The notes below the pieces were generated by a model. That model saw only the letters and a list, made by a program, of their open reading frames with translations, was not told the origin of the DNA and did no database searches. A stretch of 64,000 bases of DNA from an uncultured Anaerobiospirillum sp. (GTDB taxonomy: Bacteria > Pseudomonadota > Gammaproteobacteria > Enterobacterales > Succinivibrionaceae). Below are positions 4,898 to 27,707 of the stretch, piece by piece. Position 1 is the first letter of the stretch. Each line of letters starts with the position of its first letter. The stretch covers positions 1-64,000 of the forward strand of contig CALXOW010000003.1 of NCBI GenBank assembly GCA_944390115.1, in the 5' to 3' direction. The position numbers were made by a program, and so were the translations under genes.

Positions 4898-6049
4898 TTA
4901 ATCGCTTTTTTCTTCCTCCTTGAGACAGCCCATAATTTCCAAATTGTTGCAGATAGAGAGGATCTTGAGCAGCTTCAGCAAGGTCTCAGGCTCCACCGTA
5001 TGGAAGCCTTGGCTATTGGTGAATACTTCCTCTTCATGAGCCAAGGTGTAAGCTAGGTTCTGCGCGAGCATGCAGTTGCAGTAGATATCGTATGGTTCTT
5101 GTTTTTTAATAGTGCTGCCCAGCACCATCAGCGCACCTAGGCAGGACGCAAGATCAATCGCATCATCGTTACGCTCAAAATGGGTCGTACCGTCAGCTGC
5201 GAAGTAACGGGTCACCAAGGAAAACTCGAGATGATAGTCAGCGCTGATTGCGTTTAGGGTGCTCGGGTCTTGCTCGCCGCATTCAATCATAATATCGGCC
5301 ACCCGCTGGAAGTGCGGTCTTAATTCCTCAATGTCGCGCGGGCCAATAAAGATGTTGAGATTAAGTGAAGTTTTTTGCTCATTGAGGTGGAGCTGAGGCT
5401 GCAGTGAGCGGGGCACCTTCTTGTTGGCAACTTTATCGCGGATTTCAGGGATAGGATGTGCCATCGCTGGTTCCAGAAAGCCTGACATTAGACTCCAGAT
5501 CTTGATGTCATGGGCAATGGTGCAACCTTCTTGAAAGTTGACTACACAGTCATAGTTGGCCGCAATCAGCTGCTCTAAGAAGCTAAGATCATCCTGACGT
5601 TGGCCAATAATGAGGTCGGGCGTGGCGTAATAGCGCAGGTGGGGCTGACTTAGGTCATAGACTTGAGCAAGATAGGCCTGCACCTTGTGCACATTATTGA
5701 GAAAATCGTGCGCATTCTCGCGCTTGCCCTCGTAGGGGGCGACGTAGCGCCAGGACTCATCGCTCGCATCCAGCAGCATGACATAAAGCTGCGGCTCATG
5801 GTGAACCCAGTCCGTGTGGCACTCGGCCCCCAAGTTGGCCAGATCTAAGACGCAGAGTTTAAAGTGATGGGGCTCACTGAGCGGACAGAGGGCTAAGAGC
5901 TGGGCGCTAATGGCGTCAAGCTCTTCAATACTGCCGTGCAGGAAGTGCTGCTCAAGCTCCTGGGTTCCAAAGCCTAGCAGTAGCTGAACCTTGTCTTGGT
6001 CGAAAACTGTGGTGACATCAGGGTAGGGATAGTAAAACTCATCACTCAT
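4898..6049 (-). CDS. Array paralogue, unknown function
   Basis: 383 residues from the ATG at 6049, preferred over an upstream start at 6127 because AAGGGG lies just upstream of it and the extra 26 residues are not family-like. Family features are FKLCVLDLANLGAEC, LYVMLLDASDESWRYVAPYEGKRE, a short PQ/PDLIIGQ segment in place of the usual PQDQ, LEQLIAANYDCVVNFQEGC, and the C-terminal block LGALMVLGSTIKKQ plus MLAQNLAYTLA. The end is acidic (KEEEKSD). It diverges most from the others in the centre. Function unknown. No transmembrane segment, signal peptide or recognisable enzymatic motif. Confidence 0.82.
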   Translation of the reverse strand: MSDEFYYPYPDVTTVFDQDKVQLLLGFGTQELEQHFLHGSIEELDAISAQLLALCPLSEPHHFKLCVLDLANLGAECHTDWVHHEPQLYVMLLDASDESWRYVAPYEGKRENAHDFLNNVHKVQAYLAQVYDLSQPHLRYYATPDLIIGQRQDDLSFLEQLIAANYDCVVNFQEGCTIAHDIKIWSLMSGFLEPAMAHPIPEIRDKVANKKVPRSLQPQLHLNEQKTSLNLNIFIGPRDIEELRPHFQRVADIMIECGEQDPSTLNAISADYHLEFSLVTRYFAADGTTHFERNDDAIDLASCLGALMVLGSTIKKQEPYDIYCNCMLAQNLAYTLAHEEEVFTNSQGFHTVEPETLLKLLKILSICNNLEIMGCLKEEEKSD

Positions 6050-6189
6050 GATTAGCCCCTTGTTCGTTAAGTCAACTCGGCTATTGTAGGACAGGGGTGG
6101 CGGCAATAGGTGAAAAAAGCCGCTCAAAACATTTTCCCAAGCTTACTAGGGGCAGCTGTCCCAAGCTTACTTAGGCCAGCCTTTTGGGT

Positions 6190-7200
6190 TTAGCGGGTGT
6201 TGGTTAAGATGGCCAGAGCAACACAGCCGCGAATGGTCATGTCTATCTTCTTGGCTGAGAGCTGGCGATAACTTGCACCCCTGGCAAAGTCTTGTTCTTG
6301 CATGCGAAAGTAACCAGCCGTCGACCAATAGGCTTTGAGCATTTCGCCCAGGTTCGAGAGATCAAAATCGGTCATATTTGTGCCTAACACGTGACTTGAC
6401 TCACGTGCAGCCTGCTCCATTAAGGGTACCCACTCGGCACGCGGGTGGGGCTCAAGTAAGTGCACCATATTTCCGCGATCAACGGACATGAGGACCTTAA
6501 GCGTTTTTTCTTGCTGTTTTGAGGTCATAACCGGCTTAAACTCGGTTGGTTTCATCATTAGAGTGACGCTTGTGGGGGTGATGCCCTCAAGAAAGGCGGG
6601 CACGAAAAATTTGCGCAGTGACGCTATATGTTGATCGATGATGTTGGTGATGTCGGGCTGGTTGTGGTAGTAGTCAACTACGAAGTCATAGCCTGCTGCC
6701 TCTAATAGGCTTAAGTCATTATTGCGGGCAAGGTCGTGACGTAAGATCAATACTGGTGTAGCGTTCTTTTGGTCTTGAGGCGTGCGGATCTTGGAGTGGC
6801 GCATGACAAACTGCGTTGCCTGGCGCGCTTGGGCCAAAAAGTCAGATACGGTCTCGAGCTTGCCCTTGACCTGGAACGCATAAAAAGGCTGGCGCGTGGC
6901 GGTATCTGCAAGGAACATAAAGTTGAGCGGCTTAGGGCTCGAGGTTACGGTGCCCGCATAGACGGAGGCGAAATTGCTCAGGTCAAGGGTAAAGGCCACG
7001 ATACTCCGACGCTTAACTTGCACGCAGCTATGCAAGATCTTGCCATAGAGCTCGTCCATCTTGCGCGGCTGGTTTTGCGTGATGCATTTTAGAAAGTCAG
7101 TGTATTCCATCCCCAGGAGTGCCTCAATTTGGGCTTGGAGCACTTCTTTGTTAGAGTTCGGATCTTGCGCGAAGAGATTGGAACTGACGTCAAATTGCAT
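6190..7200 (-). CDS. Array paralogue, unknown function
   Basis: 336 residues, beginning MQFDVSSNLF, almost the same as the next gene upstream (MKFDVSSELL). AAGGAG stands just before the start. Core blocks are IVAFTLDLSNFASVY, NFMFLADTATRQPFYAFQVKGK, IRTPQDQKNATPVLILRHD and LLEAAGYDFVVDYY. The C-terminus has HVLGTNMTDFDLSNLGEMLKAYWSTAGYFRMQEQD, then ALAILTNTR. The strong conservation of the PQDQ..PV(L/I)ILRH block across the array marks it as the probable functional or structural centre of the family. Role unknown. It sits 76 bases from the upstream paralogue, probably in one transcript. Confidence 0.83.
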   Translation of the reverse strand: MQFDVSSNLFAQDPNSNKEVLQAQIEALLGMEYTDFLKCITQNQPRKMDELYGKILHSCVQVKRRSIVAFTLDLSNFASVYAGTVTSSPKPLNFMFLADTATRQPFYAFQVKGKLETVSDFLAQARQATQFVMRHSKIRTPQDQKNATPVLILRHDLARNNDLSLLEAAGYDFVVDYYHNQPDITNIIDQHIASLRKFFVPAFLEGITPTSVTLMMKPTEFKPVMTSKQQEKTLKVLMSVDRGNMVHLLEPHPRAEWVPLMEQAARESSHVLGTNMTDFDLSNLGEMLKAYWSTAGYFRMQEQDFARGASYRQLSAKKIDMTIRGCVALAILTNTR

Positions 7201-7276
7201 AGACGCTCCTTTATTGGTCGTAGCTCAGGCGCCGGGACGTAGTTAGCGGGATGGCATCATTAATGAGCACATGGCA

Positions 7277-8311
7277 TCAGCCTGCGTATTGATCATCACA
7301 TTGCGGGGTTAGGGCCGCGATGGTCGCAATCGCTTGCAGCGCTCGATTGATGCCGGTGCTGCGGATGCTGCGATAGCCCTGGCCGCTGGTGTAATAATCT
7401 TCCTTGCGCTGTAACATATTTGCGATGTTCCACAGGCAGATCAAAGCGTCCGGCAGATCAGGAGCATCCTCTTCAGGAAGCGTGGTACCGACAATGGAGA
7501 TGTTGCCCATCAGCGCATCAGTTAGGGCTTGGCTTGGGGCGGAGGTTGGCTCTTGCTCTGATTGCTCGAGCTCTTGAGCTGCTACCTGGAGGTCAGTTAG
7601 GGCATAGAATTGCAGGAGCTGGGGCTTTGAGGCGTGAGGCAGTTCCCTGCGGTAGTCCAGCTTTTGCACCACAAAGCTCTGCTCATCAAAGTTAAAGTTT
7701 TGGGGGAAATCAGGGCCCAATTGTGCCCTCAGACCGTCATAGGCTTGCGGCATGAGCCGTTGTGCCTCTTCGTTATTGCCGCTGATATCCACCACTAAAT
7801 CATAGCTCTGCGCTAATTGAGCTAAGTCTTCAGGGGCTTGCAATAGATGGCGCAATACAATGATAGGAGTGACGTTGGCCTGATCTTGAGGTGAGCGAAT
7901 CGGGATATGCCGCATCACAAACTGCGTGAGGGCGCGCGCTTGAGTGAGGAAAGCTTGCGCATTATTGAGCTTGCCGACTACGGGCTGAGCGTAGCGCACC
8001 ATGCCATTGTCGCAACCAGCTAAGAACATGAAATATCTCGGGTCATGGCAAGGGATGGCGTCGCCGGTGATGCTGCTCAGATTGTTGATATCGAGGGCAA
8101 ACATGGTCAGACCGTGAGGCTTGAACGTGGTGGTACGGCGCAGTACCTTGCCAAAGAGGGCGTCGCGTTTTTTGGCATTAGGGCTAGCTAAAATATCTTG
8201 CAGCTCTTGGCAGTTAAGGCCAATGCAGGCCTGGAGCTTGTCTTCGTTGAGGCTAATATTGCCCAGTTGCGGCTCGGAGTCGAGCAGCTCAGAGCTTACG
8301 TCAAATTTCAT
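7277..8311 (-). CDS. Array paralogue, unknown function
   Basis: 344 residues, the closest match to the preceding entry. AAGGA 6 bases upstream of the ATG supports the start. Core blocks are PHGLTMFALDINNLSSI, YFMFLAGCDNGMVRYAQPVVGKLN, IRSPQDQANVTPIIVLRH and LAQSYDLVVDISGN. The C-terminal block is IVGTTLPEEDAPDLPDAL, then YYTSGQGYRSIRSTGIN and a final ATIAALTPQ. The repeated 'GQGYRS/GFR' near the end is shared with other members. Cytoplasmic by absence of any signal. Its start lies only 21 bases beyond the stop of the 602-residue gene, so the two are very likely cotranscribed. Confidence 0.83.
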   Translation of the reverse strand: MKFDVSSELLDSEPQLGNISLNEDKLQACIGLNCQELQDILASPNAKKRDALFGKVLRRTTTFKPHGLTMFALDINNLSSITGDAIPCHDPRYFMFLAGCDNGMVRYAQPVVGKLNNAQAFLTQARALTQFVMRHIPIRSPQDQANVTPIIVLRHLLQAPEDLAQLAQSYDLVVDISGNNEEAQRLMPQAYDGLRAQLGPDFPQNFNFDEQSFVVQKLDYRRELPHASKPQLLQFYALTDLQVAAQELEQSEQEPTSAPSQALTDALMGNISIVGTTLPEEDAPDLPDALICLWNIANMLQRKEDYYTSGQGYRSIRSTGINRALQAIATIAALTPQCDDQYAG

Positions 8312-12650: not shown

Positions 12651-12676
12651 ACCAAGGAGCAAGCAAGTTTTCATCA

Positions 12677-12708
12677 GGCTGTGCCATTAAGGCATGGCCT
12701 TTTTTTTT
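12677..12708 (+). terminator. Rho-independent terminator after the SDR gene
   Basis: A 9-bp stem (GGCTGTGCC with GGCATGGCC, two G-U pairs), loop ATTAA, followed by nine T residues. It lies 27 bases after the stop codon. Confidence 0.85.
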
Positions 12709-14021
12709 GTGTGTGTGTTTTTTCTTCCTCTTGGGGACGGGGGCGGGGGCCTGTCGGCGCGACGACGAAAACATAAAATCATAGGGGCGCACAGCTGCTT
12801 GAGCAGAAAGCAAATTATGGTCGTCAAGGTTGCAGCTAGTTACAGCGTGAAACTTTTTTCAGCAGTTTAACTTAAACAGATCAGTACACGGGCACAGAGA
12901 CTAAGTGCGGGGCAATATGGAGGAGAGCTTAGAGCTTAATGTGCACTCAATGGACGGCACAAATGACTAACGGACCGGCTTTATGGCGGGAGAAAAAAGA
13001 GCTCACTTGACGCGAGCACAACTGTAGACAAAACGGCTTTTATGCGCGCTTAAACTTGGAAACGATTTCCTGTGCTGTAATAGCTAGAGCCCAAGTCTGT
13101 TGGTAGTAGCCCATTTTGGGCGCACCTGGCACCCTAGAGGTACGGGGCCGATATTTGTGCGCTTTTTGTCCAAATTGCGAGCTAGGCGGCACGGTACACG
13201 ATACCACAATTGCCCTTTTGGGTAGACAATGGGGGCAAATCTGCAATTAAGTGTGGTTGTGTGCCATGATGTAAACGTTTACATTTGACTTAAACACGGG
13301 CTTAAGCGCTTAAGCAATCCCGCTTAAGGGTAGACCACGCTGCGCCAAACAGGGCGGCCAGAGCAAGACTCGTCTTAGTCTACCTCTAGGTAATAAAACT
13401 TGTATCTAGATAGGTACTAAAACCGCATGGTTATTGGCCTTGAGCTCAGTTTGTACCGGTCAAATTTGCTGGTTACTGGCACATAGTGTGCAAAGCTTAA
13501 GTTGGGCGGGCACCATTGCACCTGAATGGTGCGTTAAATGCCCGTGACATTATTGGTTCCGTGTGGATTGCTTGCGTCTGGACTAAGAGGTTATCGAGTC
13601 TGGGTTTGTTCAAGAGTGAGTCTGGACGCTGGGGCGGGGAATTGTGCCCAAAGGGATAGCCGATTTGGTCTTAAGGCACCTCGAACGTGCCGAGCGTGAG
13701 CGTATGCTCTCAGCCTTTGCGCCAGCTTGGGCGTTAAGGGCTGTCCTCAGCGTGAGACTAACACTGCGCGTGAGGTTAACACGAAGCAGAGATACGCGCG
13801 GGAGCCGACTAGTAATGTTGAGGTAGGGCTTCAAGAGCCGTACCCATGGGGCTGGGGCCCGAAAGCACGCTGTATCGATCCAAGCTTTCCCTAGGGCTGG
13901 GAGGTTCATAGTACAGATGGTTGCAGTGACTTTATTGGGACATTGCCTATGAGGCGATAACGGCTAAGTAACGCACTTGTACTTAGTTGAATGACTGGTT
14001 TGGACTGGACTTTGGCTCGAT
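12709..14021. other. 1.3 kb intergenic region
   Basis: No reading frame here looks protein-like. It holds two palindromes of LacI-operator type (13058-13070 and 13270-13283). The rest is unstructured to my eye. With the 850-base gap after the next gene it isolates the transposase-like gene. Confidence 0.55.
13270..13283. promoter_or_regulatory. Perfect 14-bp palindrome, LacI/GalR-type operator
   Basis: TGTAAACGTTTACA is fully symmetric around a central CG, the hallmark of LacI-family operators. A LacI-type regulator gene lies 3.3 kb downstream. A second, weaker site, GGAAACGATTTCC, lies at 13058-13070. Confidence 0.5.
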
Positions 14022-15704
14022 ATGCAGGATAGCAACAAGCTAAGAGACGAATTGATGCAGCAGGTCTATGGCCCTAATTTAGATGAGGCCAAGTCTGGTG
14101 CTGAGGTCTTAAGCCTCATCAAGAGTCTGGGGCAAGGCATGGCCCGCGATCAGGCTTTAAATGGTGACCTGAGCGCAGAGGACATGGCGGCCTTGCTTGC
14201 CCATGAAGAGTACCAGCGTGCAGCCTTAGAGACGGCTCTGACCTTTCCTTACCTGGACGAGGCCGCTAAGGCCCAAGCCCTGCGCACCTACGATTTTGAA
14301 GCCCTGAAAAATGAGAGCATGGCTCTCCACGCCCAGTCCCAAGGAGCAGATTGGACCGCAGAAGATGGTGCGGCCCCGACTCAAAGCCGCGTGCACTACC
14401 AAAGTCCTTTTAGTTATGAGTTCTGGGAGCTCAGAAACGTCCAAGCTAACACCAATGTCCGCTCGATTTACAAATCACGCGGCGTGTCCTCGCGTTTAGC
14501 TGAGCTGACGCCGGCGGCCAAGTACCGGGGCTCGCGCTATGCCATGGCCCCTGAGCTCTTAGCTGCGGTCAAAGAGCTCAATGCGCGTGGCCTGTCCTTA
14601 GAGGAAATCTCCACGCAGGTACAGGCGCGTTTTAAGATTCAGGTCTCGGTCAACCGCTTAAGCTCCTTATTGCGCTATGGTCTGCGTGAACTCAACGAGT
14701 TCAACCAGCGCCGCCTCAATCCTTGCTACCCGATTATTTACATCGAGGTTGTACCGCTGCGCATGCTCACCAGCGCTAACTTGCTGGTCGAGCACCCCTT
14801 TTACTTCATCATGGGCCTTGATTTCAAAGGCGACCAAGAGCTGCTGAAAGTCTTTAACCTGCCTAAGGACTATGACCGTCCAGGAGCGCAGGCTCAGATG
14901 TGGCAGCGTGCCTTACAAGACCTCAAAGAGCGCGGCTTAGTCGACCCGATTTACTTTGTCACCGGGGCGCTCCAAGAGTTTGATGAGCCGCTGCGTGAGG
15001 TTTACCCGCAGGCCATCTATCAGCGCTGTGTTAGTTCCATGCTCGACGAGGCCTTAGCCTTAGCCGGGAGCTACGGTCCTGATGTCTCCGCCTCGGACTT
15101 TAACGACTTCACCAATCACTTTCGCAGCTTAGGTTCGTGCAAGACGCTGCTGGAATGCATGAAGCTCTTTAGCATTTACGAGCGGCGCTGGCTGGGGAAG
15201 TTTGCCGGAGCTGATCGCACCATTGCTTTCTTGCGTGAGAACTTTGTGTTCTTTGAGCAGTACTATGCCGCCGAGCCTGCGATTCGTGCCTCGCTGCGGG
15301 CGCTCAAGCCGCTTGATAACATCATCAACAACGTGCGCCGCGCCATTCGCAATGATCACAGCTACATGTTCTGCGATGTGCTCCACACCTTATGCCGGGT
15401 GTTGGAGATCGAGCGCTACTACACGCTCAAGCGCCGTCCGGTCCAGTGGCGCCGGGCGCTGCATTGCATGTTTGATGATGCCTACACCAACAAGATCATC
15501 AGCAAATATTTAAGCCTAGATGACGTGCGCTTATCTGAGCGCAGTGTCAAGCGCGATCTCGCTAAAAGCCGCAAGCTCAAGAAGGCCGAGTCCAACGCCT
15601 TCAAGCATGCCCTGGTGGTACAGGAGCATATGGATCAGCTCACCTCAGGTGAAGTCCCGGTGGTGGATATCCTTGAAGACGATAGCCCGGAATCCGAAGA
15701 TTAA
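14022..15704 (+). CDS. Catalytically dead IS256/Mutator-type transposase homologue
   Basis: 560 residues. From about 186 onward it follows the IS256 transposase plan: a helix-turn-helix (LNARGLSLEEISTQV) and KIQVSVNRLSSLL, then NQRRLNPCYPIIYIEVV, GLDFKGDQELL, WQRALQDLKERGL, YFVTGALQEF, YPQAIYQRCVSSM and the C-terminal helical block with IRASLRALKPLDNIINNVRR and PVQWRRALHC. At the three DDE positions I read E242 (family D, in YLDAL), G315 (family D, in SDG) and I435 (family E, in TTNAIE); the conserved His after QRC is Ser. An N-terminal ~170-residue extension is not part of the family. The reading frame is intact and long, so it is probably a domesticated DNA-binding protein, not an IS. Function unknown. 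Confidence 0.72.
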   Translation: MQDSNKLRDELMQQVYGPNLDEAKSGAEVLSLIKSLGQGMARDQALNGDLSAEDMAALLAHEEYQRAALETALTFPYLDEAAKAQALRTYDFEALKNESMALHAQSQGADWTAEDGAAPTQSRVHYQSPFSYEFWELRNVQANTNVRSIYKSRGVSSRLAELTPAAKYRGSRYAMAPELLAAVKELNARGLSLEEISTQVQARFKIQVSVNRLSSLLRYGLRELNEFNQRRLNPCYPIIYIEVVPLRMLTSANLLVEHPFYFIMGLDFKGDQELLKVFNLPKDYDRPGAQAQMWQRALQDLKERGLVDPIYFVTGALQEFDEPLREVYPQAIYQRCVSSMLDEALALAGSYGPDVSASDFNDFTNHFRSLGSCKTLLECMKLFSIYERRWLGKFAGADRTIAFLRENFVFFEQYYAAEPAIRASLRALKPLDNIINNVRRAIRNDHSYMFCDVLHTLCRVLEIERYYTLKRRPVQWRRALHCMFDDAYTNKIISKYLSLDDVRLSERSVKRDLAKSRKLKKAESNAFKHALVVQEHMDQLTSGEVPVVDILEDDSPESED

Positions 15705-16556
15705 GCGGGAACTTCCAGCAGGGGCTCACTGGGCACGGGCACAGTGCCCGCTGAGCGGCACCGGCGCGAGCGTAGTGCCTTGCTGAACGGAAACCCAGTA
15801 CCAAGCTGGCTAGAAACAGTGCCAGCGCGGGTACAGTACCAGCGCGCTCAGTCAGCGCAAGCACAGAGCCAACGAAAGCACAGTCAGTGGAAGCACAGCG
15901 CAAACACAGTACCAGGCGGGAGTAGGGGCTATGTCTGCTCTGAGTATTGGTGGTAGCACGGGCGAAGATCAGCCCTCAATGTTAGGGCGTGTGACCCATG
16001 ATGGTGCATGCACCAAATTGTCCTGGTGATGGTAATTGAGCCATCAAATGCCTACTTTGGGATGTTTCTAGCTTAATTATGCGCGACACAAAGTGAGAGG
16101 TTTGTTGCAAAACTCGATGTAATCTTTGCAGAACTTTGCATTGGGTTTGCCTAAGACCGGGTGCTTGTGATAAGGTTAGCTTGCACTACTAAGTGATTGG
16201 GGCAAAGGGTTGAGGCCGTTTGGCCCGATACTCCGCGCCCATAGGGATAGAACTTCACTTAGCTTACCTTGAGCCACCAATACCACAGACTAAGTGCTTT
16301 AGTGGAAGGGATAGCCAGTAAAGCAGCAGGTCTAAGCGCTGTGCGCTTATTCTTGTGTCACGGCAAGCATTCATTGACTCAGCCAGCAATGGCCGGTAAA
16401 TGTAGTGCTTGGCTCAAGGTGGTGCTCTAGTACTTTGTACTGAGCTTGCGTGGCAAGCTCAGCTAGACTCAGAACGAAGCTAGCCTCGGCTAGCTTTTCT
16501 TGTCTTTGGTCTCGGTTGGCTAGGCAAGCGCGTTGCGATGGACTGTGGGGTTGGAT
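15705..16556. other. 850-base intergenic region with degenerate short repeats
   Basis: Immediately after the stop, 15720-15930 is built of loosely repeated units around ACAGTGCC/ACAGTACC and GCACAG, including a near-palindrome GGGCACAGTGCCC. The remainder, toward the regulator, is AT-richer with scattered TTGCA motifs near 16102-16150. No gene is visible. Confidence 0.5.
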
Positions 16557-24877: not shown

Positions 24878-26122
24878 CTAGACAAAGAGCTGCTGGAGCA
24901 GGCCTTTCTTGAGCTCGCGCCACTTCTCAAGCTCAGCCTTGGACAAAGCAATCACATCATCGATAGCGTCAAGGCATTCGGCGATCTTGCGTTGCTCTTC
25001 AAGGCTTGAAGGTACATAAGCTTTGATTTTGCTGATATCCTTTTCTTTGATATGAACAACTTGCGGCCCCTGAGCAACACGGGATATTGCTTGCTTGACC
25101 TGATGGTTGATTACGTAGCTTAGAATCCTACCATCGAGCCAAGGCACAGGGCGGTAGATAAGCAGATCGCTGCCAAGGATTACGCCTTCTTGCATCACGC
25201 AAGTCGCGGTTGAGATGTCTTCTGCAGTTTCACCTGATGTAGGTATGAGCACATCACCTATGTGGCTTAAGAACTTTGGTTCAACCTTTTTCTCTGTTCG
25301 TCGTACGATGTTGTATGCTACTTCTTCGTAGGTGGTGTATAGCTCTCCATATAGGATGAGTGGCGTGCCGTTATCTGAGATGGCGGCTTTAGAAAGTGGC
25401 GCGCCCTTTTGAAAGGTGCCAAGCTCACCCAGTGTTTTGCATTTCCAGTCAGGAAAGTCAGAGCCATCATCAGCCTTGAAGCGAACTTCTTGGCTAAATA
25501 GCTTTTGAACCACGCCCTTCTTGCGTTGTTCCCAAGCATCAACAATTGATTCCATTTGATTTATAGTATTATCAATTGATGATGCTATACGAACGACTTG
25601 TTGTTGTTCTTCAATGGATGGAATGTAAATAACGATGTTAAAGAAATCATCGACCGAAATATTAAGTGAACCATGTTGTCGAGCGCCTTTGCTACAAATA
25701 GATGCAACTTCTCGAGTCCATTTTTGGCTCTCAAAATAGTAAGCTAAAAAGTCTGAGTCGATGTTTGCTCGATCTTTGATGCTGAAGCAGAAATATAAAG
25801 GAGTAACGGCTCCGCAAGAAACCTTGGTTAAACGATGGATTGCACCATAATCATAGCCTTTTGATGAGCTATGATTGTACGCAAACTCACCTTGATACAA
25901 AAGAGTGTAATTTGATAGGTCAGAGCTTGCTACAGTTTTGTTGAAGTACGACTCTTGATCAATAAGACCATCACGTGCAGACATTGTAAGGGGAATATTT
26001 GTCTGGTTTTCACTATTCTTGCGAGTGACACGATTAACTAATGATGAAAGTACATAAGGTTGCCATTCAGCTTGGTAATACTGCCCATTGCTATCCTTAA
26101 ATCTAGCTAAAGGTCTAGCCAT
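24878..26122 (-). CDS. hsdS: Type I restriction-modification specificity subunit
   Basis: 414 residues. It has the usual two target-recognition domains, about 20-190 and 225-385, each closed by a conserved helical region (EEQQQVVRIASSIDNTINQM..WEQRKKGVVQKLF and LEEQRKIAECLDAIDDVI..KWRELKKGLLQQLF). These define the two halves of the DNA target and bind two HsdM subunits. The first recognition domain (about 25550-26100) is clearly richer in A+T and rare codons than the second, suggesting recombination or transfer of that half. The ATG at 26122 has AAGGAT upstream and starts 16 bases after the hsdM stop. Last gene of hsdR-hsdM-hsdS. Target sequence cannot be predicted here. Confidence 0.93.
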   Translation of the reverse strand: MARPLARFKDSNGQYYQAEWQPYVLSSLVNRVTRKNSENQTNIPLTMSARDGLIDQESYFNKTVASSDLSNYTLLYQGEFAYNHSSSKGYDYGAIHRLTKVSCGAVTPLYFCFSIKDRANIDSDFLAYYFESQKWTREVASICSKGARQHGSLNISVDDFFNIVIYIPSIEEQQQVVRIASSIDNTINQMESIVDAWEQRKKGVVQKLFSQEVRFKADDGSDFPDWKCKTLGELGTFQKGAPLSKAAISDNGTPLILYGELYTTYEEVAYNIVRRTEKKVEPKFLSHIGDVLIPTSGETAEDISTATCVMQEGVILGSDLLIYRPVPWLDGRILSYVINHQVKQAISRVAQGPQVVHIKEKDISKIKAYVPSSLEEQRKIAECLDAIDDVIALSKAELEKWRELKKGLLQQLFV

Positions 26123-26138
26123 AGCGTGATCCTTTATA

Positions 26139-27707
26139 TTATAAGTCCAACTGTTCTAGAAGAGAGTTAACTTTGGCAACAGCCTCTTGCTTGGCCATAT
26201 CTATTTTTTGAATTTCAAAGCCAATTGATTTAATATCGATCGATGGCTTCTCATCAAAAATAGGTATATATCTAGTAATATTAAGATTCCAGTTATTATT
26301 GGCCACATCTTCCATAGATGCTACATAAGCAAACTTATCTTTGTTTTCACGTTTTATGTAGGTGTTTACGATCTTATCAATGTGTTCTTGATCTAAGGTA
26401 TTTTGATTAACACCTGGAGAAAACTCTGAGTTTGCATTAATAAACACGATGTTATCTTTGTTTACTCCTCTGTCTGCTTTTAATAATAGTAAGCAAACTG
26501 AGATATCAGTGCCATGGAACAAATTCTCAGGGAGGCTAATCACCGCATCTAAGCAGTTGAGATTTTGGATGATGTACTTGCGAATGGTTTCATCGGGACC
26601 GTTTCGGAAGAGAACTCCGTGAGGTAAGAGCACCGCAATGCGGCCGTCGTTTGGATCCATGTGGTAAATCATGTGCTCAAGGAAGAGGAAGTCGGCTTGG
26701 TTTTTACGTGGCAGTTTGCCTGCGTCCTTATAGCGCGGATCGGATTTAAGACCAGGAGTTTTGGGCTCATATTTAAGCGAGTAAGGTGGATTGCACACCT
26801 GCACTGTGAGCTTGACTTTGTCGTAGTGGTCTTCGGTCAGGGTATCGCCGTTGTAGATGGTAAAGTCGCGGTAGCTAATGCCGTGCATTAGCATGTTCAT
26901 GCGTGCAAGATTATAGTTGCTGGCATTTTTCTCTTGGCCGTAGAAGTGACCCACCTTATGAGCGCTGAGGTGCTTTTGTACCTCAAGCAGCATTGAGGCT
27001 GAGCCACAGGTGCAGTCACCCACCGACTTGGCCTCACTCAAGCCGATCGTTGCCAAAGTAGCCACTAACTTAGCAAGGCAGGTTGGGGTAAAGAACTCAC
27101 CAGCCTTCTTGCCTGCATCAGAGGCAAAAAGAGCAATTAACTGCATGTAGGCTGTGCCTAAGAGATCAATGTCGGTAAGGTCAAAATCCAGCTCGTTAAC
27201 CTTGGTGATGACCGAGGCAATAAGCTTGGTGCGCTCGGCGACAGTACGTCCTAACTCTTTGTCTTGTAGGCGCATGTCGTCAAAGAGCCCGGCAAAGGTT
27301 GTCTCAGAGTCTTGTCCTACGGTTGAATCGGTCAGGGCCTTGATTGCTTTCTCGTAGTCTTCGATGCTGAACCTGTCATCTTCACCTACTGGAGCTTGGA
27401 TCTTTTGCACCAAGGTGCGGAACAAGTGCACCGGCTTGATGACATATCCCAGCTCACTTAACGAGCAAGCTATCAAATCATCATGGTAGTCATCAAGGGG
27501 GAAGGCCTCCTCATAGGTTAACTCATCATTAACCAGCTGCTCGTTCAGGTACCGCTCAGTGTGCTCGGACAGGTAGCGATAGAAGATAGTGCCTAAGATG
27601 TAGTTCTTGAACTTTGAGGCATCCATGGTGCCGCGCAACTCATTGGCGATTTCCCAGAGCTTGCTGGCAAGTACTTGTGCTTGGGCCGAGCTGTCGAGTT
27701 TCGACAT
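26139..27707 (-). CDS. hsdM: Type I restriction-modification DNA methyltransferase subunit
   Basis: 522 residues, the length of type IC (EcoR124-type) HsdM. The N-terminal helical domain (LASKLWEIANELRGTMDASKFKN, split as usual) is followed by the methyltransferase fold: GEFFTP near 210, the SAM-binding motif VGDCTCGSASMLL near 235, and the catalytic N6-adenine motif NPPY near 308. HDKIV-like C-terminal helices contact HsdS. It methylates adenine in the target as an M2S complex and protects host DNA; with HsdR it forms the nuclease. Its ATG follows the hsdR stop by 5 bases, with the ribosome binding site AGGAG inside the end of hsdR. Confidence 0.95.
   Translation of the reverse strand: MSKLDSSAQAQVLASKLWEIANELRGTMDASKFKNYILGTIFYRYLSEHTERYLNEQLVNDELTYEEAFPLDDYHDDLIACSLSELGYVIKPVHLFRTLVQKIQAPVGEDDRFSIEDYEKAIKALTDSTVGQDSETTFAGLFDDMRLQDKELGRTVAERTKLIASVITKVNELDFDLTDIDLLGTAYMQLIALFASDAGKKAGEFFTPTCLAKLVATLATIGLSEAKSVGDCTCGSASMLLEVQKHLSAHKVGHFYGQEKNASNYNLARMNMLMHGISYRDFTIYNGDTLTEDHYDKVKLTVQVCNPPYSLKYEPKTPGLKSDPRYKDAGKLPRKNQADFLFLEHMIYHMDPNDGRIAVLLPHGVLFRNGPDETIRKYIIQNLNCLDAVISLPENLFHGTDISVCLLLLKADRGVNKDNIVFINANSEFSPGVNQNTLDQEHIDKIVNTYIKRENKDKFAYVASMEDVANNNWNLNITRYIPIFDEKPSIDIKSIGFEIQKIDMAKQEAVAKVNSLLEQLDL

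Follow-up and report, generated by a model that had tools for sequence, protein, structure and literature searches.

A probable domesticated IS256-family transposase homologue with a broken catalytic centre in Anaerobiospirillum

Eukaryotes offer many familiar cases of domesticated transposases, bacteria only a few. To our knowledge, the bacterial cases include none from a DDE (aspartate-aspartate-glutamate) insertion sequence (IS) in which the catalytic centre has been lost while selection has preserved the gene at a fixed locus. Here, a gene that appears to be of this kind, called class A, is described from an uncultured Anaerobiospirillum sp. It lies on a stretch of 64,000 nucleotides (the window: contig CALXOW010000003.1 of assembly GCA_944390115.1, positions 1 to 64,000), and its features are collected in Table 1. 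The closest described relatives are the IS256/Mutator transposases, represented by that of ISCth4 (PDB 6xg8, 6xgw and 6xgx), which class A resembles in its predicted fold and in homology over the helix-turn-helix (HTH) and the catalytic domain. Unlike the ISCth4 enzyme, class A has no D/D/E triad and no CxxH motif, and neither a dimerization domain nor an N-terminal DNA-binding domain can be recognised in it. Instead, it has a new N-terminus, is not bracketed by repeats and is a single-copy gene at a locus shared between species.

Other described systems are comparable in part. The plant FHY3/FAR1 and MUSTANG genes are, like class A, host genes that arose from Mutator-like transposases. They are eukaryotic, with a regulatory function reported, and the likeness to class A is one of analogy. 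FHY3/FAR1 are reported to act as transcription factors derived from Mutator-like transposases (PMC13306707, PMC3435246). RAYT, also called TnpA-REP, is unlike class A in being neither a DDE nor an IS256 protein. It is an enzyme of the HuH type that is associated with REP repeats and has kept its catalytic activity. It is reported to be a domesticated prokaryotic transposase (PMC8266576). TldR differs from class A in being RNA-guided and in having an unrelated fold and parent element. The TldR proteins are nuclease-dead relatives of TnpB. They are reported to be mobile-element proteins turned regulators (PMC13418256).

The class A open reading frame (ORF) is intact and encodes 560 amino acids. 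The product matches Pfam Transposase_mut (PF00872; E 1.6e-18, residues 177-444) above the gathering cut-off and NCBIfam IS256 (E 6.4e-25, residues 172-446) with 87.8 bits, which is below that model's 150-bit cut-off. The ISCth4 transposase structure 6xg8 is one solved relative (E 1.1e-15). By these homologies, the class A protein is a descendant of IS256 transposases. A predicted structure of residues 166-530 (pLDDT 85.5, pTM 0.80) has the same fold as ISCth4, helical insertion domain included. In the genome of the window class A is present once, and the sole other match (E 0.002) is a gene of class B, a giant relative described below.

The N-terminus is new and spans about 165-170 residues. 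Nothing in class A can be recognised as equivalent to the dimerization and N-terminal DNA-binding domains described for ISCth4 (PMC7780238). Residues 1-50 carry the conserved motif LRDELMQQVYGP..VLS.I..ARDQALN and are the most conserved part of the protein, with 27/50 residues invariant among six orthologues; the remainder of residues 1-165 is variable. Across the 11 genomes of the genus (all drafts), significant matches to the first 69 residues are limited to these six orthologues, four more being at chance level (E 0.15-0.52). A preliminary description, made from the DNA alone, had proposed an intact frame, IS256 kinship over the HTH and fold, and a new N-terminus of about 170 residues, all of which held.

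Table 1. Features of the class A gene and positions in the window
Feature	Position	Strand	Basis
Class A gene, domesticated IS256-family transposase homologue, 560 amino acids, single copy	14022..15704	+	ORF, profile and structure matches
New N-terminal region, residues 1-165, replacing the IS256 dimerization and N-terminal DNA-binding domains	14022..14516	+	orthologue comparison
HTH equivalent (residues 176-232), in which the majority of known DNA contacts have changed	14547..14717	+	alignment to ISCth4, model
RNase H-like catalytic-domain fold and helical insertion, residues 233-500	14718..15521	+	predicted structure
E242 codon; ISCth4 counterpart, catalytic D175	14745..14747	+	both aligners
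G315 codon; ISCth4 counterpart, catalytic D241; all 6 orthologues have Gly	14964..14966	+	both aligners
D432 codon; ISCth4 counterpart, catalytic E348	15315..15317	+	both aligners

The catalytic residues of ISCth4 are D175, D241 and E348 (PMC7780238). The corresponding columns of class A were read by two aligners, namely hmmalign with a profile and MAFFT with 39 IS256-type relatives of intact triad, 12 from genomes and 27 from viral contigs. In place of the triad, the window protein has E242, G315 and D432. Over the orthologues, in the order G000, G003, G009, G010, G001 and G004, the first column reads E,E,D,D,V,D, the second is G throughout, and the third reads D,D,D,D,D,G. The insertion domain has lost its CxxH motif as well: the two columns of the motif read CCSSSS and SSTTDD, so that C persists in two orthologues and H in none. 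As D, D, E, C and H are all retained in every one of the 39 other rows, the losses in class A go beyond chance. Thus, judged from the residues, class A has a broken catalytic centre, for which the invariant G315 and the loss of CxxH are mainly responsible, and we infer that catalysis is abolished.

The preliminary description had the residues as E, G and I, with all three DDE positions lost. The first two readings stand; the I was a misalignment, since both hmmalign and MAFFT give D432. An acidic residue is therefore regained at the third position, in 5/6 orthologues, and the triad as a whole is not. As the first position is also acidic in 5/6, one position alone is lost outright, and "all three lost" was too strong. 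The broken CxxH is a finding beyond that description. The acidic residues at the first and third positions, together with E319, which is invariant and lies four residues past G315, could be taken to mean that class A is still catalytic, for example as a nuclease, with an altered set of E or D first, a nearby acid such as E319, and D third. The first position is, however, V in G001, the third is G in G004, and the second has changed from D to G in all six, while CxxH is lost and the 39 relatives are strictly D/D/E. Altered catalysis is thus highly improbable.

Class A was detected in 6 of the 11 genomes of the genus. No match reached its N-terminal part in 46 other genomes of the family, and a pattern-based search confirmed no class A among viral contigs. 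Four species share one locus, in which class A is followed by LacI and MFS (major facilitator superfamily) genes; the other flank consists of a metallophosphoesterase gene and a second shared gene, a pair that is inverted in G009. In the window, an additional dehydrogenase-like ORF lies between class A and this pair. In G001 and G004, class A is convergent with class B, their ends being 169 and 244 bp apart. The metallophosphoesterase and LacI genes lie on separate contigs in the seven other genomes of the genus, which leaves no empty site for a comparison of target duplications.

There is also no sign of mobility. An inverted-repeat scan of window positions 12651-16532 gave two pairs, neither of which brackets class A, while the same method found TGTGTAA-containing ends, among the five longest pairs listed, around three of four ordinary IS256 copies. 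The flanks free of IS ends that had been proposed were therefore confirmed, and no orthologue locus resembled an insertion, the repeat scan itself covering the flanks in the window. The reading frame is open in all six species. For the closest pair, the ratio of nonsynonymous to synonymous substitution rates (dN/dS) is 0.060 (bootstrap 0.041-0.084) at a dS of 0.69, which is similar to neighbouring genes (0.059, 0.083 and 0.089). Five more pairs, at dS 1.1-1.6, gave 0.134-0.208, and the other 9 of 15 pairs are too diverged for a dN/dS reading. The orthologues at the same locus under purifying selection that the preliminary description had called for are thus present.

A decaying, functionless relict of an old IS insertion would also have substituted catalytic residues and no features of mobility. 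This is very unlikely, close to negligible, given the dN/dS of 0.060, the frames open in 6/6 species and a new N-terminus that is conserved. Instead, the single copy, the locus shared by four species, the low dN/dS, the lack of bracketing repeats and the centre broken in all six orthologues support the proposed domestication, and it is nearly certain that class A is a domesticated transposase.

As to what the protein does, the best explanation, which we hold to be somewhat more probable than its negation, is a domesticated transposase of the IS256 family, catalytically inactive and now at work for the cell. Here, the RNase H-like fold and helical insertion domain would be retained as a non-cutting binding platform, and it is probably this core, rather than the altered HTH, that engages DNA or a nucleoprotein complex. 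The conserved N-terminal motif would be used for partner binding, with class B, the giant relative that neighbours class A in two species, as the leading candidate. The expected outcome would be the regulation or organisation of chromosomal DNA and not transposition. For such a regulatory or architectural role, the chances appear about even.

Several observations weigh against this explanation. Of the folded regions, the HTH is conserved least, with 8/57 residues invariant in the six orthologues, as compared to 39/113 for residues 233-345 and 47/155 for residues 346-500. In ISCth4, the HTH makes seven contacts to the transposon end (PMC7780238). Only two of the seven are matched in the window protein (S192 and S214) and most are replaced; in the orthologues, T126 of ISCth4 has become Leu in 6/6 and R127 Glu in 5/6, while Y120 is retained in none. 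In addition, class A was not found in 5 of the 11 genomes, which are drafts and 81-95% complete, and so is not needed genus-wide, and it adjoins class B in just two of the six species that have it. Finally, the predicted structure of the full-length protein is poor (pLDDT 55; six rows in the alignment), with low confidence in the N-terminal region, so that the partner motif there is a guess from conservation.

The weak HTH, with its changed terminal-repeat contacts, could also mean that class A is a pure protein scaffold or partner subunit, a pseudo-transposase that does not bind DNA and leaves any targeting to class B or to class C, a set of truncated relatives. Consistent with a scaffold, class A is without recognisable dimerization and N-terminal DNA-binding domains, that half being retained in the separate class C genes, and A and B adjoin in two species. 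Yet the 39 intact relatives vary at the contact columns too (T126 is present in 24/39, R127 in 30/39, K148 in 11/39 and E144 in 2/39), so that a change there need not mean a loss of DNA binding. Moreover, the HTH equivalent is retained as a fold in the predicted structure despite its low conservation and replaced contacts. Its net charge is +3 in the window protein and -1 to +3 in the orthologues, with a mean of -1.4 in the 39 relatives. Classes A and C are also unlinked and not always together (G005-G007 have C but not A, and G001 has A but not C).

Given this variation and the charge, binding with another specificity is possible. Any DNA binding by class A would have to differ from that of an IS256 transposase. 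In the preliminary description, the transposase had been recruited as a DNA-binding protein. Recruitment is supported by the selection and the locus; DNA binding is unproven, the HTH contacts being mostly replaced. With the weak HTH conservation set against the variable relatives, a non-catalytic platform for nucleic acid or partners is ranked first and the pure scaffold second, the latter as a rather doubtful reading.

A protein without a working catalytic centre could also act as a dominant-negative inhibitor, silencing IS256 elements by titrating their transposase or their ends. The genome of the window has three PF00872 genes, one from each of classes A, B and C, and in all of them the triad is incomplete; intact-triad genes occur in only 3/11 genomes of the genus, one copy in each. 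This scarcity needs no inhibitor, since in 32 of the 46 other genomes of the family, which do not have these genes, no PF00872 match was obtained at E 1e-5 either. The scarcity is itself uncertain, the genomes being drafts. Draft assemblies often miss IS copies. As class A is also without the domains that bind transposon ends, inhibition is improbable. With regard to anti-phage defence, one protein each of classes A, B and C gave no PADLOC match at E 1, and a class D protein gave one weak match (E 0.015).

Class A is not the only such descendant. When the genus (11 genomes) was surveyed with PF00872, 37 places were found. Class B proteins, of about 1190-1570 amino acids, occur in all 11 genomes, the copy in G003 being cut by a contig end. 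They retain the first Asp in 11/11, while the second Asp and the third Glu are found in none (four align to a gap at the second). They have a conserved N-terminal SKYA.KK.AQ motif and a conserved C-terminal block (e.g. L071:7763-11413). In 9/11, a TerC-like gene is the first long ORF to one side, and in a tenth it lies one gene further away, the family having been named in G000. The closest class B pair has a dN/dS of 0.083 (computed for seven pairs). In the 46 other family genomes, a class B profile matched just the IS256 core (G020, G028).

Class C genes encode 268-376 amino acids, corresponding to the N-terminal half of an IS256 transposase and ending before the catalytic Glu (e.g. L094:8475-9530). 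They are found in 8/11 genomes in one neighbourhood, where one flank carries rsmE-like genes and a conserved unnamed gene in 8/8 and metK adjoins in 6/8 (names by sequence reading). The first catalytic position is readable in four of eight (S, N, S, S), the second is Asp in G006, and the closest pair has a dN/dS of 0.117. Class D comprises eight tandem genes of 387-469 amino acids in G008 (L080:5044-16759, G008:C16), none with a full triad; one is readable at the first catalytic position only (R). Class E is one gene of 423 amino acids in G007 (L081:6665-7936, G007:C1), with Pro second, Glu third and the first position not aligned. Class F has an intact triad and is present as a single copy in each of G001, G002 and G008. 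In G002 and G008 it occupies the same locus (L082:6876-8198, L083:3918-5321), with a dN/dS of 0.148 and no clear terminal repeats, and is perhaps an immobile yet catalytic copy.

A tree was built from 44 of 49 sequences and 152 columns, five of the eight class C sequences having been omitted because their alignment or coverage was poor. In it, A, B, D, F and the three class C rows each form one clade. The class C rows nest among the IS256 elements of the family (support 96/92 and 97/98). The tree does not resolve the relations of A, B and D, and approximately unbiased (AU) tests do not reject AB, AC, ABC, ABD or BC, so that one common origin of the classes and several independent domestications in the genus would both fit. 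Classes A, B and C could also act together in marking, bridging or silencing chromosomal DNA, as the parts of a non-cutting, split "pseudo-transpososome" in which the truncated class C would supply the DNA-end-binding half that class A lacks. We regard this assembly as unlikely.

Downstream of class A, between it and LacI, the window contains a conserved non-coding element of about 310 nt (16188-16498) with long-range helices and an intrinsic terminator at 16479-16498. It has no Rfam match at gathering scores, and below these a chance-level match only. Its model scores strongly only at the class A locus shared by four species, and both-sided changes occur in 11 of 101 predicted pairs (four sequences). 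The element was first suspected to be part of class A. One of its hairpins has weak matches upstream of LacI, on the LacI strand, at five of seven other LacI loci (E 0.11-2.6), which makes it likelier to belong to LacI. These matches prove little, as two chance-level matches arose elsewhere and the stretches searched were mostly upstream sequence. The element is perhaps an undescribed small RNA or a leader of the LacI gene. Elsewhere in the window, three related, neighbouring ORFs of unassigned function (409, 336 and 344 amino acids) lie on the minus strand at 4898-8311, and the GC content of positions 25001-27000 is about 0.42, as compared to about 0.51-0.56 in the flanking blocks, so this segment is possibly foreign DNA.

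No description of a gene like class A was found in the literature searched, which did not cover subscription papers and preprints, in agreement with its having been called apparently undescribed. Class A appears to be one of several retired IS256 enzymes in this genus of gut bacteria. One genus has kept IS256 descendants at several separate loci, with class B in every genome examined, and the recruitment of dead transposases in bacteria therefore becomes testable in a defined group.
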